Shown: in pieces, positions 117 through 64,000 of the stretch
How the letters are laid out: each line of letters starts with the position of its first letter
How positions within the stretch are numbered: position 1 is the first letter of the stretch
Source of the DNA: Methanocalculus natronophilus
GTDB lineage: Archaea > Halobacteriota > Methanomicrobia > Methanomicrobiales > Methanocorpusculaceae
Direction: 5' to 3'
Length of the DNA stretch: 64,000 bases
Assembly: GCF_038751955.1 (NCBI RefSeq)
Contig: NZ_JBCEXH010000008.1
Span: forward strand, 1 to 64,000
Position numbers and translations under genes: made by a program
Notes under the pieces: generated by a model
The model's input: only the letters and a program-made list of their open reading frames with translations
Databases searched by the model: none
Told to the model about the DNA's origin: nothing

Positions 117-2408
117 ATGAAGGACGCTCCAAACATTCTCTGGCTTGAGGAGATCAGGAAGGGTGATCTGCCCTCTGTGGGTGGCAAAGGCGCATCGCTT
201 GGTGAAATGGCCTCTATCGGGCTTCCTGTACCCCAGGCATTTGTTGTTACCGCACAGGCATTCCGGCGCTTCCTTGTCGAGACCGGGCTTGAAGAATCAC
301 TCTATTCCATCCTTGAGGGTCTGGATGTCGATGAGAATAATGCGCTTGAGTCTGCTGCGGGTAAGGCAAAGGATCTCATCATGTCTGTCCCGATTCCTGA
401 CTATATGGTGGACGAGATCCGGTCAGCCTATGACAGGATCGGTCACAAGACCGTTGTCGCAGTCAGGTCAAGCGCGACTGCAGAAGATCTCCCTGATGCA
501 AGTTTTGCAGGGCAGCAGGAGACGTTCCTCAACATCATCGGTGGAGATGATGTCATTGAAGCAGTCCAGATGTGCTGGGCATCGCTCTATGGAGCGCGTG
601 CCATATACTACCGGTCAAAACAGGGCTTTGATGACCGGAGTGTCAATATCGCGGTAGTTGTCCAGGAACTGATCTTCTCGGAGAAAGCCGGTGTTCTCTT
701 CACATCCCATCCGGTAACAGGAGAGCCCCTCTCGATCATCGAAGGGTCATGGGGGCTTGGTGAGGCCGTTGTATCAGGCTCGGTATCTCCTGATAACTTT
801 GTCTTCGACCAGTCGAAACAGAAGATTGTCGACCGGATCATTGCCAGCAAAGAGACCGAGATCATTCCTGATGGTACAAAAGGGACAAAGGAAGTCCCTG
901 TTCCCGAAGACCGGCGCACAAAACCCGTGCTCTCAGATGATGAGGTTGCACGCCTCGCCTCCCTTGGCAAACTCTCTGAGGATCACTATGGTGTTCCCCA
1001 GGATATCGAATGGGGAATTGTGGGAGAAGAAATCTATATTCTTCAGTCAAGGCCGGTTACAACGATCAAGGCACAGACCCAGACAAAGGCAGCAGCTCCA
1101 ACCGGTCAGCAGACAGTCCTCCTTGAAGGCCAGGGCGCATCCCCCGGAACGGTTACCGGACGGGTTGCGATCATCAAGCAGATCAAGGATTCAGGCTCTG
1201 TTCAGGAAGGAGATATTCTCGTTGCAAAGATGACAAATCCCGATATGGTGCCTGCCATGCGTCGGGTATCCGGCATCATCACCGATGAAGGCGGTATGAC
1301 CTGTCACGCTGCGATTGTCAGCCGCGAACTCGGCACCCCTGCTGTTGTCGGGACCAAGAAGGCGACAACAACCCTGAAGAACGGCCAGATTGTGACAATC
1401 GACGGTGATAAAGGTGTTGTATACGAAGGCGAGGTCCGGGCAGCCAGGGAGAAAGATGATGCGCCTGTACAGGCAGCCGCAGCACCGCTGGTCACTGCAA
1501 CCCTGATCAAGGTGAATGTCTCACTTCCCGAAGCCGCAAAGCGGGCTGCCGCCACCGGTGCAGACGGTGTCGGGCTCCTCAGGATTGAGCATCTCATCCT
1601 TGGGATGAACAGGACCCCACAGTGGTTCATTGAACAGAAGCGTGAGGATGAGTTCATCGACGAACTCTATGAAGGTATTAAAACGATTCTTGACGCCTTC
1701 CCCGGCAAGCCCGTCTGGGTGCGGACACTTGATGCCCCGACTGATGAGTTCAGGAATATGGAGGGTGGAGAGGACGAGCCGGTTGAGCACAACCCGATGC
1801 TTGGATGGCGTGGAATCCGGCGCGATCTCTCGGTTCCTGAACAGTTCCGGCTCCAGGTGGAGGCATTCAAACGACTCTGGAAAGATGGATACGATAATCT
1901 TGGCCTGATGCTCCCGCTTGTGAACCATCCACGGGAATTTATCCAGGCAAAAGCCCTGCTCAGGGAATGGGGAGTTGCTGTTGACGCAGTCACCCTCGGT
2001 ATCATGGTGGAGGTTCCGTCATCTGCCATCCTGATAGACGACTTCATCAGGGCGGGCATCAATTTTGCATCGTTTGGCACAAACGATCTCGTCCAGTATA
2101 CCCTTGCTGTGGACAGGAACAACGAACATGTCGCCTCGATGTATGAACCAACCCACCCGGCGGTGCTGAAACTGATCGACTATGCGATCCAGCGGTGCCG
2201 ATCTGCGGGTGTTGAATGCTCAATCTGCGGCCAGGCAGGATCAGACCCGGCAATGGTATCCTGGCTTGTCGAACATGGAATCAGGAGCGTCTCGGCAAAC
2301 ATCGATGCAGTACAGAAGATCCGTGAAGCTGCAGCCAGAACCGAGCAGCGGATGGTCCTTGACCTTGCGTATTCGAAGGGTGGCAATGAAGAATACCGGC
2401 TCTTCTGA
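117..2408 (+). CDS. ppsA: Phosphoenolpyruvate synthase
   Basis: Converts pyruvate, ATP and water to phosphoenolpyruvate, AMP and phosphate, the entry to gluconeogenesis in an autotrophic methanogen. The 763-residue length fits the family. The N-terminal nucleotide-binding domain has the GGKGASLGEM and VRSSATAEDLP motifs. The swivelling phosphohistidine domain has GGMTCHAAIVSRELG with the catalytic His at residue 397. The C-terminal TIM barrel carries SICGQAGSDP with the catalytic Cys near residue 704. There is no strong ribosome binding site, which suits a leaderless start behind the TATA-like element. Its last 23 bases overlap mfnA. Confidence 0.96.
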   Translation: MKDAPNILWLEEIRKGDLPSVGGKGASLGEMASIGLPVPQAFVVTAQAFRRFLVETGLEESLYSILEGLDVDENNALESAAGKAKDLIMSVPIPDYMVDEIRSAYDRIGHKTVVAVRSSATAEDLPDASFAGQQETFLNIIGGDDVIEAVQMCWASLYGARAIYYRSKQGFDDRSVNIAVVVQELIFSEKAGVLFTSHPVTGEPLSIIEGSWGLGEAVVSGSVSPDNFVFDQSKQKIVDRIIASKETEIIPDGTKGTKEVPVPEDRRTKPVLSDDEVARLASLGKLSEDHYGVPQDIEWGIVGEEIYILQSRPVTTIKAQTQTKAAAPTGQQTVLLEGQGASPGTVTGRVAIIKQIKDSGSVQEGDILVAKMTNPDMVPAMRRVSGIITDEGGMTCHAAIVSRELGTPAVVGTKKATTTLKNGQIVTIDGDKGVVYEGEVRAAREKDDAPVQAAAAPLVTATLIKVNVSLPEAAKRAAATGADGVGLLRIEHLILGMNRTPQWFIEQKREDEFIDELYEGIKTILDAFPGKPVWVRTLDAPTDEFRNMEGGEDEPVEHNPMLGWRGIRRDLSVPEQFRLQVEAFKRLWKDGYDNLGLMLPLVNHPREFIQAKALLREWGVAVDAVTLGIMVEVPSSAILIDDFIRAGINFASFGTNDLVQYTLAVDRNNEHVASMYEPTHPAVLKLIDYAIQRCRSAGVECSICGQAGSDPAMVSWLVEHGIRSVSANIDAVQKIREAAARTEQRMVLDLAYSKGGNEEYRLF

Positions 2409-3477
2409 AGAGGAGGTCTTCTCCTACCTCTCTTCTGTCAGGGACGAAGACGAACCCTACGATCGCATCCTCTCCTCAATGTGCACAAGGCCGCACAAGG
2501 TTGCTATTGCTGCCCATATGCAGTTCATTGAGACAAACCTTGGCGATCCTGGTCTTTTTCCGGGTACGATGCGGCTTGAGGATGAACTGATCAGGCTCCT
2601 TGGTGATCTCCTCCACTGCCCTGAAGCTGGCGGCTATGCCACGTCCGGGGGTACAGAATCAAATATCCAGGCGCTCCGGATAGCCCAGAAGCAGAAGCCG
2701 GTTGAATCCCCAAATGTCATCATACCTGCATCTGCCCATTTCTCCTTTGACAAGGCGTGTGATATGCTCGGGCTTGAGATGCGGACTGTTCCCCTTGACT
2801 CCGGGTACCGGATGGATACGTCTGCAATTCCTGACTGCATAGACAGAAATACCGTCGGTATTGTTGCTGTTGTCGGAACCACAGAATACGGGATGATCGA
2901 TGCAATTGGAGAGATCTGCGCAATTGCAGAGGAAGCGGATCTCTTCTTCCACGTCGATGCCGCGTTTGGGGGTCTTGTTGCACCATTCCTCCCTGATAGT
3001 GATCCATGGGACTTTTCTCTTTCCGGGGTCTCAAGCGTCTCAGTTGATCCCCATAAGATGGGGATGAGCACGATCCCCTGCGGCGCCCTCCTTCTCCGTG
3101 ATCCTAAAGCATTTGGTTGCCTCAATGTTGATACGCCGTACCTGACCGTCAAGAAGGAATGTACCCTTGCAGGAACACGGCCCGGTGCGCCTGTGGCAGG
3201 TGCGTATGCCGTCCTCCGGTATCTTGGGCGTGAGGGCCTCTCTGCGATTGTCTCCGGGTGCATGGAGAATACCTGGCGTCTCATCGAAGGGATGGAGGCA
3301 TTTGGGTATCCGCGTGCAGTCACGCCTGATGTGAATGTCGCCACCTTCGACTGTCCGCTTACACCTGCCGGGTGGCGCGTCTCCCGAACACGGCAGGGTC
3401 ATATGCGCACCGTCCTGATGCCTCATGTGACCAGGGATGTGGTTGAAGCATTTCTAGAGACAATTGGTGAATCCTGA
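2386..3477 (+). CDS. mfnA: L-tyrosine decarboxylase for methanofuran synthesis
   Basis: A PLP enzyme of the group II decarboxylase family. MfnA makes tyramine from tyrosine for methanofuran, and related archaeal enzymes decarboxylate aspartate to beta-alanine for coenzyme A. The 363-residue protein shows ATSGGTESN, FHVDAAFGG and SVDPHKMG with the PLP-binding Lys near residue 224. The frame is open further upstream, but family similarity begins at the ATG at 2386, preceded by GAAGGGTGG. It overlaps ppsA by 23 bases and the next gene by one, suggesting co-transcription. The choice between tyrosine and aspartate as substrate rests on family membership. Confidence 0.9.
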   Translation: MKNTGSSEEEVFSYLSSVRDEDEPYDRILSSMCTRPHKVAIAAHMQFIETNLGDPGLFPGTMRLEDELIRLLGDLLHCPEAGGYATSGGTESNIQALRIAQKQKPVESPNVIIPASAHFSFDKACDMLGLEMRTVPLDSGYRMDTSAIPDCIDRNTVGIVAVVGTTEYGMIDAIGEICAIAEEADLFFHVDAAFGGLVAPFLPDSDPWDFSLSGVSSVSVDPHKMGMSTIPCGALLLRDPKAFGCLNVDTPYLTVKKECTLAGTRPGAPVAGAYAVLRYLGREGLSAIVSGCMENTWRLIEGMEAFGYPRAVTPDVNVATFDCPLTPAGWRVSRTRQGHMRTVLMPHVTRDVVEAFLETIGES

Positions 3478-4028
3478 TGCTTGAAGTACTGAAAAAAACA
3501 CTCCATACCTGCCCGATCGTGAAGCGGGGTGAATATACATATTTTATCCACCCCATCACCGACGGTGTCCCGCTCGTTGAGCCCGCGCTTCTGCGGGATG
3601 TTGCCTGCTCGCTCTTCAAGGCGCTTGATTTTTCAAATGTCGACAAGATCATCGTCACCGAGGCAATGGGTATTCATATCGGCACTGTCCTCTCCCTGAT
3701 GACCGATATTCCCTATACTATCATCCGGAAACGCGAATACAACCTCCCCGGCGAGGTGGTGATCGGCCAGACAACCGGCTATTCAAAAGGTACGCTCTAT
3801 CTCAACAGTGTCTTTGAGGGTGACCGGGTGGTGGTTGTTGATGATGTTATCAGCACCGGCGGAACGATCCGTGCAGTTCTGCCCGCAATCGAATCCACAG
3901 GGGCGATCATAACCGACCTCTGTTTTGTCATCAACCGTGGCAACCCCGATATCGGGAGACCGTATAAGTCCCTTGTCACCATCGATGTTGATGAAGACGG
4001 CGTCCATGTCATTGATTCGTATTTCTGA
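3477..4028 (+). CDS. hpt: Archaeal hypoxanthine/guanine phosphoribosyltransferase
   Basis: Purine salvage enzyme joining hypoxanthine or guanine to PRPP. The type I phosphoribosyltransferase signature VVVVDDVISTGGT lies near residues 118-130. The 183-residue length and the N-terminal part (TYFIHPITDGVP) match the archaeal HPRT group rather than bacterial Hpt or Apt. The ATG overlaps the mfnA stop codon by one base, and the 3' end overlaps dph2. The base specificity cannot be read from sequence alone; adenine is a possible alternative substrate. Confidence 0.85.
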   Translation: MLEVLKKTLHTCPIVKRGEYTYFIHPITDGVPLVEPALLRDVACSLFKALDFSNVDKIIVTEAMGIHIGTVLSLMTDIPYTIIRKREYNLPGEVVIGQTTGYSKGTLYLNSVFEGDRVVVVDDVISTGGTIRAVLPAIESTGAIITDLCFVINRGNPDIGRPYKSLVTIDVDEDGVHVIDSYF

Positions 4029-4956
4029 GATCCTTGACAGGATCCGCCCTCTCCCTGTCCGGACCGTGGCGCTCCAGGCGCCTGAGGGGTTGAAACGGGA
4101 GCTGGCAGCAGTTGCCGACGCGCTCCGGGACGAAGGCTATCTGGTTGTCATCTCCGGTGATCCCTGTTATGGTGCATGCGATCCGGCACTTGAAACTCTT
4201 GCATACGCCGATATCCTTGTCCATCTCGGACACACGCCGATCCAGGACGACGATCGAATCCTCTTTGAGCCGGTTGTTCTGGATCTGCCTCTTCCGCCGC
4301 TTGATTCCGTCCTGCAGCTCATCACAACCGATACAATCGGACTCATCTCCACAGCCCAGCATGCCGCCGCCCTCCCCCGCCTCGCAGACGAACTGCAGAA
4401 GCATGGGATTGCTGCTGTGATCAGCGATCCCTCGCCCCGCACCCCCCTGCCGGGGCAGGTTCTCGGCTGCACCTATGCAGCAGCACGATGTGCCGGAGCC
4501 GATGAACTGCTCTACTTTGGATCAGGTGTCTTTCACCCGATTGGTGCTGGGATTGCAACCGGCAGACGGGTTGTCACGCTTGATCCCTTCACCGGGGATG
4601 CAGGGATTGTTGAGGCAGATCGGCTTCTCAGAAAGAGGTTTGGTGTTATTGAGAAAGCCCGTCTTGCAGATCGGTTCGGGATTATTGTCTCGACAAAATC
4701 CGGGCAGAACCGCATGAGGCTTGCTGAAGAACTCATGAACCATCACCCTCGTGCAGATGTCATTCTTCTCAGGGAGGTGACTCCTGATCAGCTCCTGAAT
4801 CTCGGTTATCCCTGTTATGTCAATACTGCCTGCCCAAGACTTGCTCTTGATGACCAGATCCGGTTTCCCGTCCCGGTACTCTCCCCTGCCGAGTTTGAGA
4901 TCCTCTGCGGGATACGTGACTGGGAAGCATATGAGATAGATGAGATTGTTGCATGA
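4006..4956 (+). CDS. dph2: Diphthamide biosynthesis protein Dph2, archaeal radical-SAM-like enzyme
   Basis: Transfers the 3-amino-3-carboxypropyl group from SAM to the target histidine of elongation factor 2, the first step of diphthamide formation. Three regions carry the expected iron-sulfur cysteines: CYGAC, VLGCTYAAARC and YPCYVNTACPR. The frame is open from 3925, but homology starts at MSLIRISEILDRI, so I chose the ATG at 4006, inside the end of the previous gene. The resulting 316 residues fit an archaeal homodimeric Dph2. The following gene overlaps by four bases. Confidence 0.9.
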   Translation: MSLIRISEILDRIRPLPVRTVALQAPEGLKRELAAVADALRDEGYLVVISGDPCYGACDPALETLAYADILVHLGHTPIQDDDRILFEPVVLDLPLPPLDSVLQLITTDTIGLISTAQHAAALPRLADELQKHGIAAVISDPSPRTPLPGQVLGCTYAAARCAGADELLYFGSGVFHPIGAGIATGRRVVTLDPFTGDAGIVEADRLLRKRFGVIEKARLADRFGIIVSTKSGQNRMRLAEELMNHHPRADVILLREVTPDQLLNLGYPCYVNTACPRLALDDQIRFPVPVLSPAEFEILCGIRDWEAYEIDEIVA

Positions 4957-5549
4957 AACTGAGGCATCTTGAGATACAGCTCGAAAAAGTGGCAGGGATC
5001 CCGGATCCCGATCCCGCAATGGAGCAGTACATGACGCCCGCGCCCCTTGCTGCCCGGCTTCTCTATGATGCATATCTTGCCGGGGATATCAGCGGGTGTG
5101 TGGTCTGTGATCCCGGATCCGGGACCGGCATCCTGGCGATTGGTGCTGCCCTTCTTGGTGCAGAACAGGTGTATGGGATTGAAAGAGACGAACGCCTGGT
5201 GGCAGTTGCACAGGAGAATGCAAAACTGCTCTCCGTAGACTGTACATTTGTTCCCGGTGAGCTGAGTGACTTTCAGGTTTCGTGCGATACAGTGGTTATG
5301 AACCCCCCCTTTGGCGCACAGAAGCGGCATGCAGATCGCCCCTTTATCGATGCAGCTCTCAGGATAGCACCGGTGGTCTATGGGATCTTTAATAAAGACT
5401 CGATCCCGTTTCTCTCATCCTACATCACAGGGCGGGCAGCGATTGTGGGTATGGTTGCTGCCCGCTTTCCGATAAAACGCTCATTTTCGTTTCATAAGAG
5501 AGCGGTTCTGGATATCCCGGTTGAGATCGTCTGCATGAGGCGGATCTGA
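4953..5549 (+). CDS. METTL5-like RNA N6-adenine methyltransferase
   Basis: A class I SAM methyltransferase of 198 residues. The SAM loop DPGSGTG is at 53-59, an acidic residue follows in YGIERDE, and the catalytic motif NPPFG is at 117-121, as in N6-adenine methylases. The N-terminus (MKLRHLEIQLEKV, then EQYMTPAPLAARLL) is typical of the METTL5 group, whose human member modifies 18S rRNA. An rRNA target is inferred from the family and from the translation-related neighbour dph2, which it overlaps by ATGA. Confidence 0.85.
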   Translation: MKLRHLEIQLEKVAGIPDPDPAMEQYMTPAPLAARLLYDAYLAGDISGCVVCDPGSGTGILAIGAALLGAEQVYGIERDERLVAVAQENAKLLSVDCTFVPGELSDFQVSCDTVVMNPPFGAQKRHADRPFIDAALRIAPVVYGIFNKDSIPFLSSYITGRAAIVGMVAARFPIKRSFSFHKRAVLDIPVEIVCMRRI

Positions 5550-5551
5550 AA

Positions 5552-6715
5552 ATGATAAAAGTTCCCCGCAGCATCCTTGGCTATACCTCAGGCCATATCG
5601 TCATCGATCTCTACAGCCCGGTGATCCCGGCACTCATCCCACTGTTGATCCTCCAGCCAGGGATCGGGTACTTCCTGGCAGGACTGCTCGTCTCGGTCTT
5701 CCAGGTGACCTCCTCACTCTTCCAGCCGGTCGTCGGGTGGCTCTCGGACCAGTCTGGATGGTCAGCACCGATCTGGCTCTGCATCCTGACGAGCGCCCTC
5801 TGCATCGGCCTCTACGGGGTGGTGCAGAATTATTATCTGCTCCTCCTCTTTGCCGCAGGAGCGGGCATCTCGCATGCCTTATTTCATCCTGCTGCGCTCC
5901 TCCAGGTCCACGGGGAGACAACAGTCCATAACAGGGGAACCCTCACCTCCATCTTTGTGACCGGGGGGAATCTCGGGTTTGCGATAGGCCCGGTCATCGT
6001 GGGTATTCTCATCGGGTTTGGGGGGCTTCCCGCGCTCACCCTGATTGCAATCCCCGGTCTTCTGATGGCGGCATTCCTCTACTCTCTCACACGGAGGAGA
6101 GCTCCTCTTCCAAAACCAGTGAGCGCTGAGGTGGCGTCTCCGCGGATCCCGCTTGGCCCGGTCAGCCTGATTGTGACAATAGCGGCTCTCCGCTCATGGG
6201 TGATTATGGCTTCTGTTGCATTCTTCCCGGCATACCTGATCCTGACAACAGGGTCATCACTTGTTTTTGCCAACTTTATGCTGACCGTGATGCTCCTTGC
6301 AGGTGTTGTCGGCCAGGTCACCGGCGGCTTCCTCTCTGATCGGTATGGCAGGCGTGAAGTGACGATCCTGGGTCTCTTTGCCTGCATTATCCCGTACATG
6401 CTCTTCTTCATGACATCGGGGTGGATTGTCCTCATCCTGATGGTGCTCATCGGGTACCTGACCTGGTCGACCTTCTCCGTCACGGTGACGATGGCACAGG
6501 AGTATCTCCCCGGCAGGGTCGGGCTCGCATCAGGGCTGCTTCTTGGCTTCTCGATTGGTGCAGGTGGTCTTGGTGTCTCTATTGTTGGTATTGCAGCTGA
6601 CCTGATGACCCTTCCAACAGCACTCTTTGCACTAACGATACCCCTCATCGCAGCAGCCATCCTCTCACTTGCACTGCCGCGCCAGGCTTCTGCACCTGGG
6701 GTAAACCAGCCATAA
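5552..6715 (+). CDS. Major facilitator transporter, fosmidomycin-resistance-like
   Basis: A 387-residue integral membrane protein with about 12 hydrophobic segments and the MFS loop motif GWLSDQSG after TM2, repeated as GGFLSDRYGRREV in the second half. The opening GYTSGHIVIDLYSPVIPALIPLL and the SHALFHPAA segment resemble the Fsr (fosmidomycin resistance) group of drug:proton antiporters. It follows the methylase gene by two bases, so it is probably the last gene of the ppsA-led cluster. The natural substrate is unknown. Confidence 0.82.
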   Translation: MIKVPRSILGYTSGHIVIDLYSPVIPALIPLLILQPGIGYFLAGLLVSVFQVTSSLFQPVVGWLSDQSGWSAPIWLCILTSALCIGLYGVVQNYYLLLLFAAGAGISHALFHPAALLQVHGETTVHNRGTLTSIFVTGGNLGFAIGPVIVGILIGFGGLPALTLIAIPGLLMAAFLYSLTRRRAPLPKPVSAEVASPRIPLGPVSLIVTIAALRSWVIMASVAFFPAYLILTTGSSLVFANFMLTVMLLAGVVGQVTGGFLSDRYGRREVTILGLFACIIPYMLFFMTSGWIVLILMVLIGYLTWSTFSVTVTMAQEYLPGRVGLASGLLLGFSIGAGGLGVSIVGIAADLMTLPTALFALTIPLIAAAILSLALPRQASAPGVNQP

Positions 6716-6752
6716 CACCTTTTAACTCATGTGACAATTCCATCCTGATCCA

Positions 6753-8411
6753 ATGCTTTCAGGAATGAAACGGTACGGCCAGATTGCGGATATCCTGGTG
6801 AAACATGGCTTTGGTATTGCGGTAGATGAACTCTTCCCCGGTCTTCCGTCACGTGTTCTCTTCAAGAGGAAAGAGGCGGAGACTGATCTCTCGGCATATG
6901 AGCGGATCCGCCTTGCAATAGAAGAACTTGGACCAACATTCATCAAGTTCGGCCAGATCATGAGCACCCGGCGCGAGCTCTTTCCGCCTGAGCTGATCGA
7001 CGAACTCCATAAACTCCAGGACCGGGTGCCTCCTCTCCCCTTTCCGGAGGTCAGATCTGCGCTTGATGAGACTGTCCCCGGATGGGAGGTACTTTTTCAG
7101 CGTATCGATCCGGTGCCTGTTGCCGCAGCATCAATCTCCCAGGTGCACCGGGGGGTATTGGCAGATGGAACTGTTGTTGCCGTCAAGATCATGCGTCCTG
7201 GTATTGAAGAGGTGATCGAGACTGATCTCCTGATTCTCAGGTCGCTAGCGGAACGGCTTGAGGTTGTCTTTCCCGATCTCCGTGTCTACAACCCTGCCGA
7301 ACTTGTCAAAAGCTTTTCCGGCCAGATACGAAAAGAGCTTGACTTTACACGTGATGGGAAGAATGCCGAACGCATCAGGTCCAATATGGCCGAACTTGAT
7401 GGTGTCCGGGTGCCGAAGATCTATTGGGAAGCCAGTTCACGCCGGGTGCTGACCATGGAGTTTATCGAAGGTGTCCGGATCGATAATGTCGAGGCTTTGC
7501 GTGCAATGGGTCATATTCCCCAGGAGATAGCCGACCGGGGATTTCGGGCGTATCTCAAACAGATCATGGTTGACGGCTTCTTCCATGGCGATCCCCATCC
7601 CGGCAACCTTCTTGTGATGGGAAACGGGGATCTGGCGTTTCTTGACTTTGGGATCTGCATGGTGCTGAGGCCTGAGCGGCGAAAAACCTTCATCCAGCTG
7701 CTCTATGGTCTTGTCGAGACTGATGTGGATGTCTGCCTTGAGGCGTTCTATGGTCTTGGAATATCGATCCCACATGAGGATAGGGAGTATTTCAGGGACG
7801 ATCTCTACCTGCTGCTCCTCGACTATGCCGACTATGAGGTGAGGCAGTATGATTTCTCCAGGATGACGATCGAACTCTCCGAGATACTCAGGAAATACCA
7901 GGTTCGTGTTCCCGGAGAGATGATGCGGCTTTTAAAGGTGATAGGCATGGTCGGAGATATTGCTCTAGTGCTTGATCCGACGTTTCGTTTCAGTACAAAG
8001 GCCCGACCTTATGTTGCTGATCTGATTACAGAGCAGTACTTTTCAACAGATGCAATCAAAACGGAGATCACTGCCGGTGTCAGTTCTCTCCGTGCCCTTC
8101 TCAGGATGCCCGAACAGATGAATGCTGCATTCCAGAGGGTGAGTGAGGGGAGAGTCAGGATTGATGTTGTTGCAGGCGATGTCCAGCGGCTCCAGGAGAC
8201 GGTTGACCGCTCAACCGACCGGCTCATGGTCGGGTTGATCACCTCCTCGGTTGTCATCGGATCTTCGCTTCTCCTGCTTGCTCCGGATGCTGTGATACCC
8301 TATGGGAATTATGTCGCTTTCATCGGATATGGCGCAGCGGTCTGTGTCGGGATTTATGCAGTTACCCATGCACTCAGGGTTGCCAGAAAAGCACCGTTTC
8401 GGCGCAGGTGA
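6753..8411 (+). CDS. UbiB/ABC1 (AarF) family atypical kinase
   Basis: A 552-residue member of the ABC1/ADCK/UbiB family, linked in other organisms to isoprenoid quinone or lipid metabolism. The family marks are all present: KFGQ at 65-68, the Ala-rich loop AAASISQVH at 124-132, a lysine near 145 (VAVKIMRPG), HGDPHPGN at 278-285 and DFG at 298-300. The C-terminus has two hydrophobic helices, indicating membrane anchoring. Methanomicrobiales are not known to make ubiquinone, so the physiological target is open. It ends one base before a gene on the other strand. Confidence 0.9.
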   Translation: MLSGMKRYGQIADILVKHGFGIAVDELFPGLPSRVLFKRKEAETDLSAYERIRLAIEELGPTFIKFGQIMSTRRELFPPELIDELHKLQDRVPPLPFPEVRSALDETVPGWEVLFQRIDPVPVAAASISQVHRGVLADGTVVAVKIMRPGIEEVIETDLLILRSLAERLEVVFPDLRVYNPAELVKSFSGQIRKELDFTRDGKNAERIRSNMAELDGVRVPKIYWEASSRRVLTMEFIEGVRIDNVEALRAMGHIPQEIADRGFRAYLKQIMVDGFFHGDPHPGNLLVMGNGDLAFLDFGICMVLRPERRKTFIQLLYGLVETDVDVCLEAFYGLGISIPHEDREYFRDDLYLLLLDYADYEVRQYDFSRMTIELSEILRKYQVRVPGEMMRLLKVIGMVGDIALVLDPTFRFSTKARPYVADLITEQYFSTDAIKTEITAGVSSLRALLRMPEQMNAAFQRVSEGRVRIDVVAGDVQRLQETVDRSTDRLMVGLITSSVVIGSSLLLLAPDAVIPYGNYVAFIGYGAAVCVGIYAVTHALRVARKAPFRRR

Positions 8412-8412
8412 T

Positions 8413-8691
8413 CTACCACCCGTTATTCCTGAAGAAGAGATTGCAATGGCAGTGTCCGTCATCTGCGATCTCAGTTCTGTGATGGGAACACGGGCAGATG
8501 ATTGCTCTGTCAGCTTCAGGATCTCCTTTTTGGATCCTGCATGGGCAGTACCGTTCGCCTTTCTGGATCTGGTTTCTGGCGAGCCCACGGATCACGGCTT
8601 TGAGCTGGGTGGTATCGGGGTTGAGCACCCATCCGTTCTCTTCGGCATATGCTTCTGCCCATACGAGAATCTCGGCACTCCGGGTTTTCAT
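8413..8691 (-). CDS. Ferredoxin:thioredoxin reductase catalytic chain, copy 2
   Basis: A 92-residue protein with the complete cysteine pattern of the FTR catalytic (beta) chain: CPC at 49-51, CPC at 66-68 and CHC at 81-83. In this family four cysteines hold a 4Fe-4S cluster and two form the redox-active disulfide that passes ferredoxin electrons to thioredoxin-like proteins. No variable (alpha) chain is nearby. It is a close paralogue of the gene just upstream, with nearly identical cysteine surroundings but a different N-terminus. It is the last gene of the cofG-pur run. Confidence 0.9.
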   Translation of the reverse strand: MKTRSAEILVWAEAYAEENGWVLNPDTTQLKAVIRGLARNQIQKGERYCPCRIQKGDPEADRAIICPCSHHRTEIADDGHCHCNLFFRNNGW

Positions 8692-8751
8692 ACCATCCTG
8701 TTATCATCTGAGGAGAAAAAAGATCTGGTTCTGACAGATGGAGGGCTTTGG

Positions 8752-9027
8752 TCACGTTCTGAAGAAGAGGTTGCAGTGGCAGTGGCCATCGTTTTCAACC
8801 TCGTCCTTATGATAGATACACGGACAGATGATCTTTTCATCAACATCGGGGTCCCCGCTCATGATCCTGCACGGGCAGTACCGTTCTCCCTGCCGGATCA
8901 TCTTGCGTGCCAGCCCCCTGATGACGGCGTCAAGCTGCTTTTTATCGGGGTTTAGGAGCCACCCCATCTCTGCAGCATACCGTTCTGCCCAGTCGCGGAT
9001 AAGCCGGGCAGCTTCAAGTTCATCCAT
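8752..9027 (-). CDS. Ferredoxin:thioredoxin reductase catalytic chain, copy 1
   Basis: A 91-residue FTR catalytic-chain protein with CPC at 51-53, CPC at 68-70 and CHC at 83-85. The six cysteines provide the 4Fe-4S cluster and disulfide of the family. It begins 17 bases after purQ on the same strand and is followed after 60 bases by its paralogue, so a tandem duplication within the operon is likely. Other methanogens use related proteins to reduce thioredoxins or glutaredoxin-like proteins; the partners here are unknown. Confidence 0.9.
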   Translation of the reverse strand: MDELEAARLIRDWAERYAAEMGWLLNPDKKQLDAVIRGLARKMIRQGERYCPCRIMSGDPDVDEKIICPCIYHKDEVENDGHCHCNLFFRT

Positions 9028-9044
9028 CTGTCTCTCACTCTCCT

Positions 9045-9740
9045 TTACGACTCTTCAGTATATGCAATCATCGAATCGAAGATCTTCTTCCCATCCGTTG
9101 ATCCAAGTATCTCTTCTGCTGCCCGCTCGGGATGGGGCATCATAACGAGCACATTCTCCTGTTCTGAGAGGATACCTGTAATGTTACCGGAAGAGCCGTT
9201 AAGATTTACGTTCGTATTGACATCTCCATTCTCGTCACAGAAACGAAACGCAATCCTGTTGTCTGCTTCAAGACGGCTGATGTCACCAGGAGGGGCAATA
9301 TAGCGTCCTTCCTTATGTGCTATCGGGATGCTGACAATCTCGCCTTGCCGGTAGAGGCGGGTGAAGGGTGAGGTGGTGTTCTCAACCCTGAGGAGAGCCG
9401 GCCTGCAGAGGAACTTCGGATAGGCATTTGTTGTGAAGATGCCGGGGACAAGCCCGCTCTCTGCTGCGATCTGGGCGCCATTGCAGATGCCGAGAATAAG
9501 CGCCCCGTTTGCTGCCGCCCGGATGATATCCTTCATAACCGGTGTCCGTGCGGCTATTGCTCCGGCTCTGAGGTAGTCGCCATAGCTGAAGCCTCCCGGG
9601 AGGATAATAGCGTCATAGCTGCGCCTGAGCCCGTCTTTATACCAGACCAGATCCACATCGGCCCCGCATACCTCTCCGACGACATAGGCGACATCCTGAT
9701 CACAGTTGCTTCCGCCAAACCTGATGACTGCTGATCGCAT
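9045..9740 (-). CDS. purQ: Phosphoribosylformylglycinamidine synthase subunit PurQ
   Basis: Glutaminase subunit of the archaeal/Gram-positive FGAM synthase (PurS-PurQ-PurL), the fourth step of purine synthesis. The 231-residue class I amidotransferase has its nucleophile Cys86 in LILGICNGAQ and the His-Glu pair in MMPHPERAAEE near the C-terminus. The start overlaps the purS stop by one base, so the two are translationally coupled. purL is not in the window. Confidence 0.96.
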   Translation of the reverse strand: MRSAVIRFGGSNCDQDVAYVVGEVCGADVDLVWYKDGLRRSYDAIILPGGFSYGDYLRAGAIAARTPVMKDIIRAAANGALILGICNGAQIAAESGLVPGIFTTNAYPKFLCRPALLRVENTTSPFTRLYRQGEIVSIPIAHKEGRYIAPPGDISRLEADNRIAFRFCDENGDVNTNVNLNGSSGNITGILSEQENVLVMMPHPERAAEEILGSTDGKKIFDSMIAYTEES

Positions 9741-9982
9741 CAGCGGACCTCGATCTCATAGGTGTGGATAACAGGGTTTGCAAGGAGTTTCTCGCAGAGG
9801 GAGATCCCAATCTCCTCTGCTGCTGCTTTGTTCTCCGCTTCAATGGTGATTGTAAACTGGTCTGCAGTAACAAGTTTCTCTGTTGGAAAGCCGAGGTGCG
9901 CGATCGCATGCCGGATCGCTTCTGCTTCCGGATTCAGCATCCCTTCCTTCAACCGGATGGTGATGATGAGATCAAATTTCAT
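9740..9982 (-). CDS. purS: Phosphoribosylformylglycinamidine synthase subunit PurS
   Basis: The small 80-residue subunit that joins PurQ to PurL in FGAM synthase. It has the expected opening (KFDLIITIRLKEGMLNPEAEAI) and the alternating strand/helix pattern with EAENKAAAEEIG. It overlaps purC by four bases (ATGA) upstream and purQ by one base downstream. Confidence 0.93.
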   Translation of the reverse strand: MKFDLIITIRLKEGMLNPEAEAIRHAIAHLGFPTEKLVTADQFTITIEAENKAAAEEIGISLCEKLLANPVIHTYEIEVR

Positions 9983-57647: not shown

Positions 57648-59774
57648 TCAGACTGAGAAGGGCCGGATGCTGCTTTTGCTGATACCGGTATGGGTGGATA
57701 CGGTTCTATACACCCCTCCTCTCAGCTGTACGATGACTGTTTCGCCCTCATAGAGAGCTCCATACTCATGCGTCAGCTCTGCCTGCCTGAGAGCGGCTGA
57801 TACTGCTGCTGGATCGGTATCTCCTGCCCGGTTCGCTGCATCTGCAATCAGCATGATTCCGGTGAATGCCCGTGCGGAAATGTCGTTTAGCTCCCCTCCG
57901 GTCTGACGGACTACCAGGCTGTTTACATCTCTCTGAACCTGATGTCGAGCGAGCTGCTCTCTCTGGTACACGCTTCCTGCGAAAATTCCATCTGCAAGAA
58001 TGCCTGCACGCATCAGAAAAGCCCGTGATTTCCAGGCATCGCCGATGGTAAAGACTGCCTCCGGGCTGTATCCGGATTCACGTGATTGCATGATGAACAA
58101 GACAGCGTCTTCAGGGGTTTTGGCAGATACAAAGATCGGGTGATCCGGGCTTTCGGCTGTGATTATGTCAACTGCCTCCCGCAATGTCATGGCATCCCGG
58201 TAGGTCTGGTCTGTTGCAATCCTGTACCCACGCATCTCTGCAGCTTCCAATACGGCTTCACGACTCTTCTCATCTCCTTCCTCAAAGAGGAGAGCGATAC
58301 CGCGTTCACCTGGTGCTGCGGTATACACGCTGTCAAGAAGATCAAAACACCGGTTGATATAGTCAGCTTCACTTACCCCAATCGGAATCAAGGGATCAGC
58401 ACCCCCGCCAGTGACAAACCCGCCCCCATCCGGTGTGATGGTAAGGGTTCCGATCAGGTGTCTGTCTCCATCCGGTATCGGATCATAGGTGGCTTCGACG
58501 CGGGCGTCAAAGAGTGATGGTATCCCGCTCTGCATGGCAAGCGGAAGCGCGATGGTTGTCTTTGAATTGAGAACAAAAAGCGCCGGGTCAACCCCTCGTC
58601 TCACCGCATCTGCAAACCAATCAGGAGCGCCACGGGTATCGATCCTGATAGAGACAACAGATGGTGGTGGCCGGATCTCATCGACTGCCTCCTGCTCTCC
58701 GAAACGGATCTGCGAGATCTCATACCGGTAGCGCGCTTCTCTCTTCTCATTGAAGTGAATAATACCCAGCGCGCCTTCATAGGTGCGGTTCCAGAACCAC
58801 CCAAGGATACAACCGCTCATCCCCTCACAGGAAAGGATGCGTGTGGAGAGGGTGTATGCTGCATCATAGGCTTCCGCAACAGTTCCCGCTGGCATCAGGA
58901 GAGCTTGATATCCCTCATCCATGAAGACAGGGTGGGTTTGTATTGTCCGTGGTGCCAGTACAAAGACTCCCTCGGCAAGGTGGGGCGCCTCTGCACGAAG
59001 CTTCAGACCTCCTTCTTCAAACACAAGAATAACAGGGTTTCCTCCCCTGCTCCTGAGTGCGGAGATGAGTGCCGGAACCTGGTCATCACCTGCAATAAGA
59101 TAGACCTCGGGAGGGTGTGCGAGGAGAGGCCGGACAAAAGCCGTATAATCGGTCTCATCCGGATCATACGCTTTCACTGTCAGGCGTAGTGCAGTGATAT
59201 GATCCTGGATCAACGCTGCCCTTGCCCGCCCCTGCTCGCTCTCCGGGTAGAGAAATGTAACATCTGTATATCCTGAGAGAAACGGTTCAAGGATTGCAAT
59301 CTCCTGCTCCGCAGGTGGGGTGAACCAGATCTGCGAAGAGAAACCCTCACTTTTGTCAGGCTGCCGGGGAGCAGCAATAGATACCAAAGGTATGGCAGAT
59401 TCTGCTGTAATCGGGGCAACTGCAAATGTAGCGGCTTTTCCGGAGACGATTATCCCGTGGATTGAGTGTTTATTCATCTGCTCCTCCACAAGAGCTGCCG
59501 CATGATCTGGATCACTCCTTGAATCCCTGACATAGAGGTTCAGAGGCTGGTCCGATGGCTGCACAGTTCCCTTTCTGATTGCATACTCCTGTGCTTTTCC
59601 GATCCCTGCATCGTCACCGGTGAGTGGGAGGATCGCAAGGATATTGAGAGGTTCTGCCCGGTCAGGACCCGATATATCCTCACTGATCCCGTTCCCAGCT
59701 GGCAGTACGGTCACCAGGATGATGAGCAGAAATGCGAGTGCGATGATTGAAGATAGCAGAATCCGGTTGTCCAT
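57648..59774 (-). CDS. Membrane-anchored protein with two type 1 periplasmic-binding folds
   Basis: A 708-residue extracellular protein. One N-terminal membrane helix (ILLSSIIALAFLLIILVTVL) is followed by two periplasmic-binding-protein type 1 folds. The first, at about 40-385, is LivJ-like: LNILAILPLTGDDAGIGKAQEYAI, HGIIVSGKAATFAVAPI, PVILVFEEGG. The second, at about 395-700, has ADYINRCFDLLDSVYT, GIALLFEEGDEKSREAVLEAAEMRGYRI and DAVLFIMQSRESGYSPEAVFTIGDAW. No ABC transporter genes are near. It could bind amino acids or related ligands as a receptor. Confidence 0.78.
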   Translation of the reverse strand: MDNRILLSSIIALAFLLIILVTVLPAGNGISEDISGPDRAEPLNILAILPLTGDDAGIGKAQEYAIRKGTVQPSDQPLNLYVRDSRSDPDHAAALVEEQMNKHSIHGIIVSGKAATFAVAPITAESAIPLVSIAAPRQPDKSEGFSSQIWFTPPAEQEIAILEPFLSGYTDVTFLYPESEQGRARAALIQDHITALRLTVKAYDPDETDYTAFVRPLLAHPPEVYLIAGDDQVPALISALRSRGGNPVILVFEEGGLKLRAEAPHLAEGVFVLAPRTIQTHPVFMDEGYQALLMPAGTVAEAYDAAYTLSTRILSCEGMSGCILGWFWNRTYEGALGIIHFNEKREARYRYEISQIRFGEQEAVDEIRPPPSVVSIRIDTRGAPDWFADAVRRGVDPALFVLNSKTTIALPLAMQSGIPSLFDARVEATYDPIPDGDRHLIGTLTITPDGGGFVTGGGADPLIPIGVSEADYINRCFDLLDSVYTAAPGERGIALLFEEGDEKSREAVLEAAEMRGYRIATDQTYRDAMTLREAVDIITAESPDHPIFVSAKTPEDAVLFIMQSRESGYSPEAVFTIGDAWKSRAFLMRAGILADGIFAGSVYQREQLARHQVQRDVNSLVVRQTGGELNDISARAFTGIMLIADAANRAGDTDPAAVSAALRQAELTHEYGALYEGETVIVQLRGGVYRTVSTHTGISKSSIRPFSV

Positions 59775-59835: not shown

Positions 59836-62046
59836 TCAACAGGCAAGCATATCGTTTCGCATCCTGACTGCTTCATCAAGTGATACCATGCCGGTCTTTT
59901 CCGGGTTCCGGATGTCGTGTCTGCTCTCTTCAGTCGCTTTTCCGGTGACATCATGATACTGGCGGACATATTCGAGCGGAACCTGCACTCCCCATGTAAA
60001 GAGCCTCCGATCAAGCCTGTTGATTGCCTGGAGAAGGTTTTTGTCGGGATCAGCCGGGTAGCGGATTTCACTGATACCTCGTTCAAAGATCCGGAGATCG
60101 TCTCTTTCAGGCCCATACCTGATGGCTTCTGCGATAGCCTCTCCAGCTGATTCATAATCAAGGAGCATGGCGGATGTCCGGGCAAGCCCATACCAACCTC
60201 CTGGAAACTTCGGGTTGAGCGCAACTGCCTGCCGGTATACATCTGCTGATCGCTTTGCCTGGCCGCCTGTCTCGTACCAGTAGGCAATCTCTGAGAGTAT
60301 CATGGCACGCTCTTCCTTCTCAGTGGTTGCCCTGAGGGCTTTGCGGTAGAAGGTGAGTGCATCCGGAATACCACATTCAGAGAAGACTTTCCCAGCTATC
60401 CTGAAGATGCGGGCTTTCCGTGCCTGGTCACCCTCTGCCTCCCGGATCATCCCTGCAAGTTTTGTGCCTGCATCAGCAGCTGAATCTTTCATCAATGCTT
60501 CAAGAAGGACAAGCACTCCGTCATAATCCTCATCCACCTCTCTTCCGCCAGCCAGAAGTACAGCTACTGCCTCGTCTGGACGCCTTGATACAGACAATGC
60601 ATGGAGTATCTGTGTCTCAAGGGTATCGTCTGGGGATACCTCGAATCCAAAGAGTTTCGTGCCGGCATACCATGCAGAGCGAATGTGCCAGAGTCTTCCC
60701 TCCGGGGTATTTTGGAGTCCACGTGATCGGTTGAACCAGATTTGTGCATCAGAAAAACCAAATGATCCAAATGCAAGAATCCCGCGACTGAGTGTCCGGT
60801 TGGATTCAGCCTGCACCTCGAGGTTTAAAAGGAGTTTCGTATCATGGGTTCCATCTCCCTTCATTGATTTATTCAGGATATCAAGACGTGAAAAGACCAT
60901 CTCATCGGTGTCATCTTCGTCCAGCAGCAACTCAAGGATGGTATATTCACGGTCAAACAGACCGCATCTCCTGCAGGATGCAGCCATATGGAGGAGCGCA
61001 TGTATACGCTGCTCTCCGGCAAGTGTTTCTGCAAGCCGGATTAGCCGATCAAAACAACTGCCCCGCTCTTCTGCGATCCTGAGTTTCTCAGTGGTTTCAC
61101 AGAGATAGATGAGTTCATCCTCGATCCCGGCAGATCTGGTTTCCTCTCCCGGCAAAATCTCTTTTGCTGCCTGGTGCGCAGACTGAAACTCTGAAAACGC
61201 ACGGTCATCGTCTCCCAGCCAAAGTGATAAGAGTGCCATCTCAGAAAGACAGGTGCGCCGGGTTGCCGGATTGTCAGTTTTCGTGCATGCGGCGGAGTAG
61301 AGTGTCCGTGCTGCTTCATTAAGCTGGTATCCCATGCAGAACTGTGCTCCCTCAAGCAGATCATCTGCAGATGGATCAAATGGGAGGAGTGCTTCAACAA
61401 AATTCTGCCACGCATCTTCGGGCTGCTGTTTGTTCAGGATTGTATGCGCACCATCCCGTGGAAGGTGTACGAACCACTGGACCGCAAAAGCTGTGATTGC
61501 GTCTGAGCATGCAGCATACATATCCAGTTCAGGTGTCGCTACCTCACCACCGGTATCTGCATGCGTTCCCTGCCAGAAGAATCTGATGATGGCGCGATCC
61601 ATTGGATGCGGGATGGGAGGGGGAACAGGTGTTGCTGTCTGAAATGCTGTTGGGTATATGAAGGTATTGAAGAGGATTTTGGTTCTCCGTCTCTGCCAGA
61701 ACTGGATTGGACGATCTGTTCCTTTAGCAAAGAGAGACGAGAGTATCTCCGGATCATCTGCGAGCATCCGGATCCATTCATCCTGCGCTGACCGGTCCCT
61801 GTTGTATTCCCGCAGAACCGGTATTATCTTCTCCCCAAGTGACGCCGATGCCTGGCTGTCACCGATGATTTCAGACAGGATGGAAAACCGGAATGCCGGA
61901 TCTGATCGAATCCTCCTGACAAAAAATGAGAGAAATGTACATTCATCAAAGAGATCCACGGATTCGTCAGGAGGAATTGTCCTGAGCAGCTCTTTGAGGA
62001 GTGAATACTCGAGAACCCCCTCCGATATCCCAGATGGCTGGTGCAT
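59836..62046 (-). CDS. TPR-repeat protein
   Basis: A 736-residue soluble protein. The C-terminal half has tetratricopeptide repeats such as ALTFYRKALRATTEKEERAMILSEIAYWYETGGQAKRSADVYRQAVALNPKFPGGWYGLARTSAMLLDYESAGEAIAEAIRYGP; the N-terminal 300 residues are helical without a clear domain. It is the first gene of a run with the double binding-fold protein (61 bases downstream) and the small helical protein. A scaffold role is likely; partners are unknown. Confidence 0.8.
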   Translation of the reverse strand: MHQPSGISEGVLEYSLLKELLRTIPPDESVDLFDECTFLSFFVRRIRSDPAFRFSILSEIIGDSQASASLGEKIIPVLREYNRDRSAQDEWIRMLADDPEILSSLFAKGTDRPIQFWQRRRTKILFNTFIYPTAFQTATPVPPPIPHPMDRAIIRFFWQGTHADTGGEVATPELDMYAACSDAITAFAVQWFVHLPRDGAHTILNKQQPEDAWQNFVEALLPFDPSADDLLEGAQFCMGYQLNEAARTLYSAACTKTDNPATRRTCLSEMALLSLWLGDDDRAFSEFQSAHQAAKEILPGEETRSAGIEDELIYLCETTEKLRIAEERGSCFDRLIRLAETLAGEQRIHALLHMAASCRRCGLFDREYTILELLLDEDDTDEMVFSRLDILNKSMKGDGTHDTKLLLNLEVQAESNRTLSRGILAFGSFGFSDAQIWFNRSRGLQNTPEGRLWHIRSAWYAGTKLFGFEVSPDDTLETQILHALSVSRRPDEAVAVLLAGGREVDEDYDGVLVLLEALMKDSAADAGTKLAGMIREAEGDQARKARIFRIAGKVFSECGIPDALTFYRKALRATTEKEERAMILSEIAYWYETGGQAKRSADVYRQAVALNPKFPGGWYGLARTSAMLLDYESAGEAIAEAIRYGPERDDLRIFERGISEIRYPADPDKNLLQAINRLDRRLFTWGVQVPLEYVRQYHDVTGKATEESRHDIRNPEKTGMVSLDEAVRMRNDMLAC

Positions 62047-62267: not shown

Positions 62268-63305
62268 TCACACGAGTTTCATCAATGGGTGGTTTGGATC
62301 CTGCACCTCTCCACCGAGTTCACGGCATGCCTCTGCGAGGACGATGTCAGTGAATGCAGTTGCGGTAGCAGCACCTTCGCAGTTCTCGATTGGGCCGAAC
62401 ATGATTAAGTCGGCACCAAGCGTCATTGCCATGATGTTGCACCCGATATCGGGGCTTGACCATGCAGCCTGCTTGATACCATCCATTCCGCCAAAGTGGT
62501 GATGGCCCATCTGCTCAAGGAGGACATCCTTACCCTCGTACTGGCTCACAAGCACGGAGGGACTCTTTGCAGTTCCCCTCCAGCGTTTCAGCCAGGTCCA
62601 TGATACGGTCATGTTGTGGTATGCACCACCGGTTGGGAGACCGTGAATTGCCTTGCAGGCGAGAATCTCACGGAATGAGCCGCCAGAGCCAAGTCCGAGC
62701 GGGGTGGCTGCAGTGTCGAGGATTGGCCGGGTGATCCCGCACTCCTCTGCGATCTGCAACATACCCTTCTCCTGGCCAGCAACGCCTCCTTCAACAAGCA
62801 CCTTCTCACGTCCGGGAACCGATGGGTCACCGGGGTTGAAGGCGAGGACGATTGCGGAGTTGACATCTGAGGCAGCGATTGCATCGATGTTCTCCTGCGG
62901 GATCGATCCATTGATCGAGTTGTAGATGGCACGGTCTGCAAGACCTACTTCAGTTACATACTCGCAGGCATGTGCAAGTGCTGGTGGTGCTGAAGAGTCC
63001 ATCAGGAAGGGGGTCTTGTTGTCAATAGAGTCAAACCAGCTGAAATAGCTCTCAAAAGCCTCGCCGTATTCAGCGATGATCTGGATCATGTAGGGGTTGC
63101 CGGTAATATCTGATAACTCCATACAACGATTCCAGAGAGCCTCTGCCTTTGCTTTGTCAATCTTTCCTGTGTGGTCATCGAGCACGGTCTCGTGCTTGTT
63201 ATAGAAGATGGATGCGCCGAGTACCCTTGGGTATTCACCGGGCTGTCCACCGATCTTCATTCCATTAAAGTCGAGAACGGTCTGTTCTTTCTCAAACCTG
63301 AACAT
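62268..63305 (-). CDS. mtrH: Tetrahydromethanopterin S-methyltransferase subunit H
   Basis: Transfers the methyl group from methyl-tetrahydromethanopterin to the cobamide of MtrA, part of the sodium-pumping Mtr complex that forms methyl-coenzyme M. The 345-residue TIM-barrel protein has MKIGGQPGEYPRVLGASIFY, NPYMIQIIAEYGEAFESYFSWF, FLMDSSAPPALAHACEYV and GCNIMAMTLGADLIMFGPIENC. A GAGGTG lies before its ATG. It follows the mtrA-type gene by 17 bases and ends the operon. Confidence 0.97.
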   Translation of the reverse strand: MFRFEKEQTVLDFNGMKIGGQPGEYPRVLGASIFYNKHETVLDDHTGKIDKAKAEALWNRCMELSDITGNPYMIQIIAEYGEAFESYFSWFDSIDNKTPFLMDSSAPPALAHACEYVTEVGLADRAIYNSINGSIPQENIDAIAASDVNSAIVLAFNPGDPSVPGREKVLVEGGVAGQEKGMLQIAEECGITRPILDTAATPLGLGSGGSFREILACKAIHGLPTGGAYHNMTVSWTWLKRWRGTAKSPSVLVSQYEGKDVLLEQMGHHHFGGMDGIKQAAWSSPDIGCNIMAMTLGADLIMFGPIENCEGAATATAFTDIVLAEACRELGGEVQDPNHPLMKLV

Positions 63306-63322
63306 AGTTGGAACACCTCACG

Positions 63323-64000
63323 TTAGAGCATACTAATTCTCGGAAGGAGCATCAGGAGCATGATAAATACAACGACTCCGGCTACAAGGCCATAGAGGAT
63401 GCCGATGTCCCGTCCGATCTTCCTGCCCACCCTCTGGGCAATCTCAGCGTCTGCAAATTCAATCTTCTTCTCGATTGCGTTAAGCCGCTTCTCTATCTCA
63501 AGGAACTGGGGGTTTGCTCCGGCAACGGAGGTTTCCATACCTGCGCCGCCAGCTTCTTTCACCTCGACAACAATCGGGTCGGCACCAAACGCTCCCGGAT
63601 CTCTGCCGGTGAGCTCAGCGATCTTTGCTTTAATCTCGCCTAGGTCTTCTGACTCCATGATGTCGACGTATTCGACCTGTTCCTGGAACCGCGTGATAGC
63701 TGCATCGTCAAGGTTCTCGATGAAGGGAATTGCACCCTCTGCCCCGACGATCTTTCCGCCTGCCACTCCTCCTTTGTGGAGTGCTTCAAGCGACTGACCG
63801 CTCAAGTGGCCTTTCACTTCAGTTCCACAGGCGAGTACAAACCTGATGTTTGGATTCGAGATGATGTTGGCGATGATCTTCTCAAGACCAAGGTTCTCGG
63901 TCTTGCAGGATCCGCATAATGCAGCCCCGCTGGCGCAGATGCCTGCCTCATCAAGGTGCGATCCCATGGTGACGACTGCAACACAGCTGTTTGCGTCGCC
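63323..64000 (-). CDS. mtrA: Mtr subunit A with an MtrG-like C-terminus (partial)
   Basis: The 5' end is beyond the window; the reading continues upstream of the internal ATG at 63967 as ANSCVAVVT. The corrinoid domain is clear: [46 protein letters not shown] with the likely cobalt-binding His, then [11 protein letters not shown] and DPGAFGADP. The last ~60 residues ([39 protein letters not shown] plus a membrane helix) resemble MtrG rather than the normal MtrA tail. No mtrF or separate mtrG lies between it and mtrH. Confidence 0.9.

Follow-up and report, generated by a model that had tools for sequence, protein, structure and literature searches.

The mtrA-mtrG fusion of Methanomicrobiales in an otherwise complete mtr operon from a relative of Methanocalculus

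The mtrA-2b gene, a fusion of mtrA and mtrG, was described in eight Methanomicrobiales. It shows a mean identity of 92.4% to the mtrA-1 of the same species, and long-lasting gene conversion between the two was inferred (Wang et al., 2015, G3, PMC4632066). A parallel fusion, mtrA-2a, joins mtrA to mtrF in Methanococcales and in Methanocella arvoryzae and is held to have arisen independently (PMC4632066). Mtr complexes solved by cryo-EM (8q3v and 9qtq) contain a single MtrA in each protomer, with MtrG free, unlike the complex encoded at the locus described here, in which MtrG bears an extra MtrA domain. Helices of MtrA, MtrB, MtrF, and MtrG, each starting with its N-terminus at the cytoplasmic end, make up the stalk of the solved complexes (PMC10998594; PMC12774963), and a disordered linker rich in Glu and Gly tethers the soluble MtrA domain (PMC10998594). 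Neither structural nor biochemical work on an Mtr complex containing an MtrA-MtrG fusion was found in the literature.

The window analyzed here, a stretch of 64,000 nucleotides, comprises bases 1-64000 of contig C8. At its far end, a single minus-strand frame (63323-64000) matches both Pfam MtrA and Pfam MtrG; it holds the 3′ 225 of 245 codons and is still open at the window edge. On the contig the frame extends a further 60 bases beyond the window, up to an ATG at 64060, and the complete gene (63323-64060, minus strand) encodes a product of 245 amino acids. The MtrA corrinoid domain is complete and spans residues 4-172 (Pfam, E 2.8e-81); it lies at 63545-64000 of the window and extends on the contig to 64051 (272 bits in a genome search). 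Residues 184-237 form an MtrG tail (Pfam, E 6.9e-23; genome search, 82 bits at 63350-63511), whose section of the gene (63323-63511, minus strand) encodes a cytoplasmic stalk helix followed by a membrane helix. Both E-values are far past chance level.

The fusion protein was found to match solved MtrA chains as well as solved MtrG chains, and when the tail was queried alone only MtrG chains were matched. Against the MtrG of 9qtq and 8q3v the tail aligns without gaps over 48-50 residues, including the GRDIGILYG stretch, and it exceeds the cut-offs of the MtrG families in Pfam and NCBIfam. From the two Pfam matches and this gap-free alignment, the fusion proposed in a preliminary description of the window is therefore real. 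A reading of the tail as a normal MtrA C-terminus was rejected because the Pfam MtrA model stops at residue 172, and the tail scores above the MtrG cut-offs and matches MtrG chains only. Its alignment with the MtrA C-terminal helix is weak and no better than the match to MtrG. Both comparisons that had been suggested for the tail, with the subunit families and with the cryo-EM structures, thus came out as MtrG.

Downstream, mtrH (62268-63305, minus strand; TIGR01114 and PF02007) follows after a gap of 17 bases, as had been noted, with the fusion stop codon ending at 63323 and the first base of mtrH at 63305. When the flanking sequence of the contig was read, mtrE, mtrD, mtrC, and mtrB were identified, together with two genes just outside the window: mtrF (64071-64256; Pfam) and an ordinary mtrA-1 with its own membrane tail (64263-64988; Pfam). 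The Pfam-confirmed order in the direction of transcription is mtrE-D-C-B-A1-F-(A2::G)-H, which places the fusion between mtrF and mtrH with the ordinary mtrA-1 upstream. The preliminary description had mtrF missing, which does not hold; its alternative, that an ordinary mtrA and mtrF lie just outside the window, describes the locus correctly, and one of the findings it had named as contrary evidence, a full MtrA bearing a membrane tail of its own, is present. Across the genome MtrA domains occur twice, and MtrF and MtrG once each, the MtrG being the fusion tail; a genome search for a separate mtrG found none. All eight Mtr subunit families, ordinary MtrA and MtrF included, are present in the operon. 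Because the sole MtrG of the genome is the fusion tail, no Mtr subunit has been lost, and the net change in the operon is one added corrinoid domain. What differs in subunit composition is the second MtrA domain gained on MtrG; the set of families is kept whole.

Immediately 5′ of the mtr operon are the mcr genes, in the same orientation, with mcrA at contig positions 68151-69857 (positions 2269-9858 of locus L003 correspond to 62268-69857 of C8). Two proteins are encoded on the 3′ side of mtrH: one matches TPR weakly (59836-62046, minus strand), and the other resembles periplasmic binding proteins, with matches in two stretches (57648-59774, minus strand).

The two MtrA domains of this genome are nearly the same sequence. 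Over the first 520 nucleotides, 511 are identical between the fusion and mtrA-1, and the edges of similarity are sharp, lying a few bases 5′ of the start codons and just past position 520, where the linkers begin. Both copies contain the motif GTEVKGH with the corrinoid-binding histidine, which we take to be HisA84 in the numbering of PMC10998594. The fusion domain is closer to mtrA-1 of its own genome than to mtrA-2 of other species, and the two copies pair in a tree of MtrA domains with a support of 100/100. The host falls within Methanomicrobiales, its nearest named relative being Methanocalculus taiwanensis (92% protein identity).

Based on the presence of all eight families, the count of one MtrG and two MtrA domains, the 511/520 match, and the agreement with the published gene and gene order, the gene is identified, with a probability of roughly 90%, as the mtrA-2b of Methanomicrobiales, within an operon, mtrEDCB-A1-F-(A2::G)-H, that is complete in other respects. 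It shares with the published gene the fusion itself, the place between mtrF and mtrH, the ordinary mtrA-1, and the homogenized MtrA domains; there is no essential difference, and the present locus adds one further species close to Methanocalculus (PMC4632066). Similar to mtrA-2a, it carries a second MtrA domain on a single-helix stalk subunit and is kept alike by gene conversion; in contrast, mtrA-2a is fused to MtrF rather than MtrG and sits between mtrA-1 and mtrG. The guess that the fusion might be a feature of the whole lineage was correct, as the fusion is already known throughout the order (Wang et al., 2015, PMC4632066).

Further survey covered 78 loci, taken from named genome records and almost all belonging to Methanomicrobiales. 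The order B-A1-F-A2::G-H was found in all loci long enough to show it except L050, L054, and L065; the match to the first MtrA domain of L069 is partial, and two loci, L111 and L108, stop inside the region. In a scan of 232 genomes of the order, every genome among the matches listed has exactly one MtrG. At least two MtrA domains are present in 27/27 single-contig genomes, and in all 21 single-contig genomes among the matches listed the MtrG match lies within a frame of 244-303 amino acids. Four genomes (G089, G059, G160, and G017) have short MtrG frames, which were rejected as standalone mtrG genes, the match being close to a contig end in each. Such positions are what would be expected of assemblies that broke off within the near-identical MtrA repeat. 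The GTEVKGH motif was found in 57/57 MtrA-1 and 66/66 fusion copies with readable protein. Moreover, the two MtrA domains of one genome share a mean DNA identity of 93.8%, versus about 74% between orthologs of different species (56 loci).

The three exceptions, all metagenome-assembled, read mtrB-mtrA::G-mtrH without mtrA-1 or mtrF, and a search for mtrF in their assemblies found none. They would fit the reading of the preliminary description, in which the fusion replaced the ordinary MtrA and MtrF in this lineage. In the genome studied here that reading is refuted by the adjoining mtrF and mtrA-1, and the MtrA counts in single-contig genomes argue against it for the order. Moreover, the left part of L054 resembles the mtrB-A1 side of its relative L063 and the right part resembles the A2::G-H side, and the junction falls within the MtrA domain that both sides share, a pattern expected from an assembler merging two near-identical copies. 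A second MtrA fragment was found on another contig in one of the three assemblies; none was seen in the other two (G233 and G234). With the L054 junction and this fragment in view, a true loss of mtrF and mtrA-1 was set aside; the three loci are probably assembly collapses of the MtrA repeat, and replacement as such is extremely improbable.

A likely mechanism, as far as it can be read from sequence and from the solved complexes, gives each protomer two methyl carriers. Following duplication of mtrA, the membrane helix of the duplicate was replaced by MtrG on fusion with the downstream mtrG. All subunit families of the cryo-EM complexes are encoded here, and MtrF as well as the MtrG tail aligns with its solved counterpart (PMC10998594; PMC12774963). 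The tail would take the position that MtrG usually has in the stalk of the trimer, and the fused MtrA domain, on a linker similar in length to that of the solved MtrA, would hang near the same height as the ordinary one. With the tail in the normal stalk place, each protomer would carry two flexibly linked corrinoid domains, attached to the MtrA-1 helix and the MtrG helix respectively, and a trimer up to six as opposed to three. MtrH would methylate both domains, with demethylation at MtrCDE, although the second domain could instead be structural or regulatory. If the two-carrier reading is true, the sodium-pumping methyltransferase of a whole methanogen order has two methyl-carrier domains per protomer. 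The fusion is worth remembering because both solved structures have a separate MtrG. Given that MtrG without an MtrA domain suffices in these two complexes, post-translational cleavage might free a stalk MtrG and a soluble MtrA domain, and the fusion would then merely fix their ratio. However, this is very unlikely, as the fusion in a single frame and the length of its linker are conserved throughout the order, and the linker resembles an ordinary MtrA tether.

In the MtrA-domain tree, which includes several species per genus, copies from the same genome pair in most of the order. In Methanospirillum (n = 6; L096, L097, L099, L100, L101, and L103) and Methanomicrobium (n = 2; L081 and L089), MtrA-1 and fusion copies instead form two well-supported clades. 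The two copies are 79-83% identical in these genera, differing at about 19-30 of 172 residues, and both keep the corrinoid-histidine motif. From the separate clades and this identity, gene conversion between the copies seems to have lapsed in both genera, and conversion activity would therefore be uneven across the order. An older conversion at the base of these genera would be compatible with the separate clades and is not contradicted by them.

The divergence in these genera also bears on whether the second domain, instead of duplicating the work of the first, does something of its own, for instance in regulation or in certain conditions. As a general explanation this is possible but unlikely: the near-identity of the domains in most of the order favors the same job for both, and the histidine motif is kept by both copies wherever readable. 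It is quite doubtful that in Methanospirillum and Methanomicrobium conversion lapsed and the MtrG-tethered copy took on a role of its own, which would give each Mtr two kinds of corrinoid carrier. The clade separation is a small addition to the published picture. In Methanocorpusculum the two copies are partly separated in the tree. One contig with a Methanocorpusculum-like mtr operon (L091) is assigned to a metagenome assembly of Bacilli, most likely as the result of a binning error.
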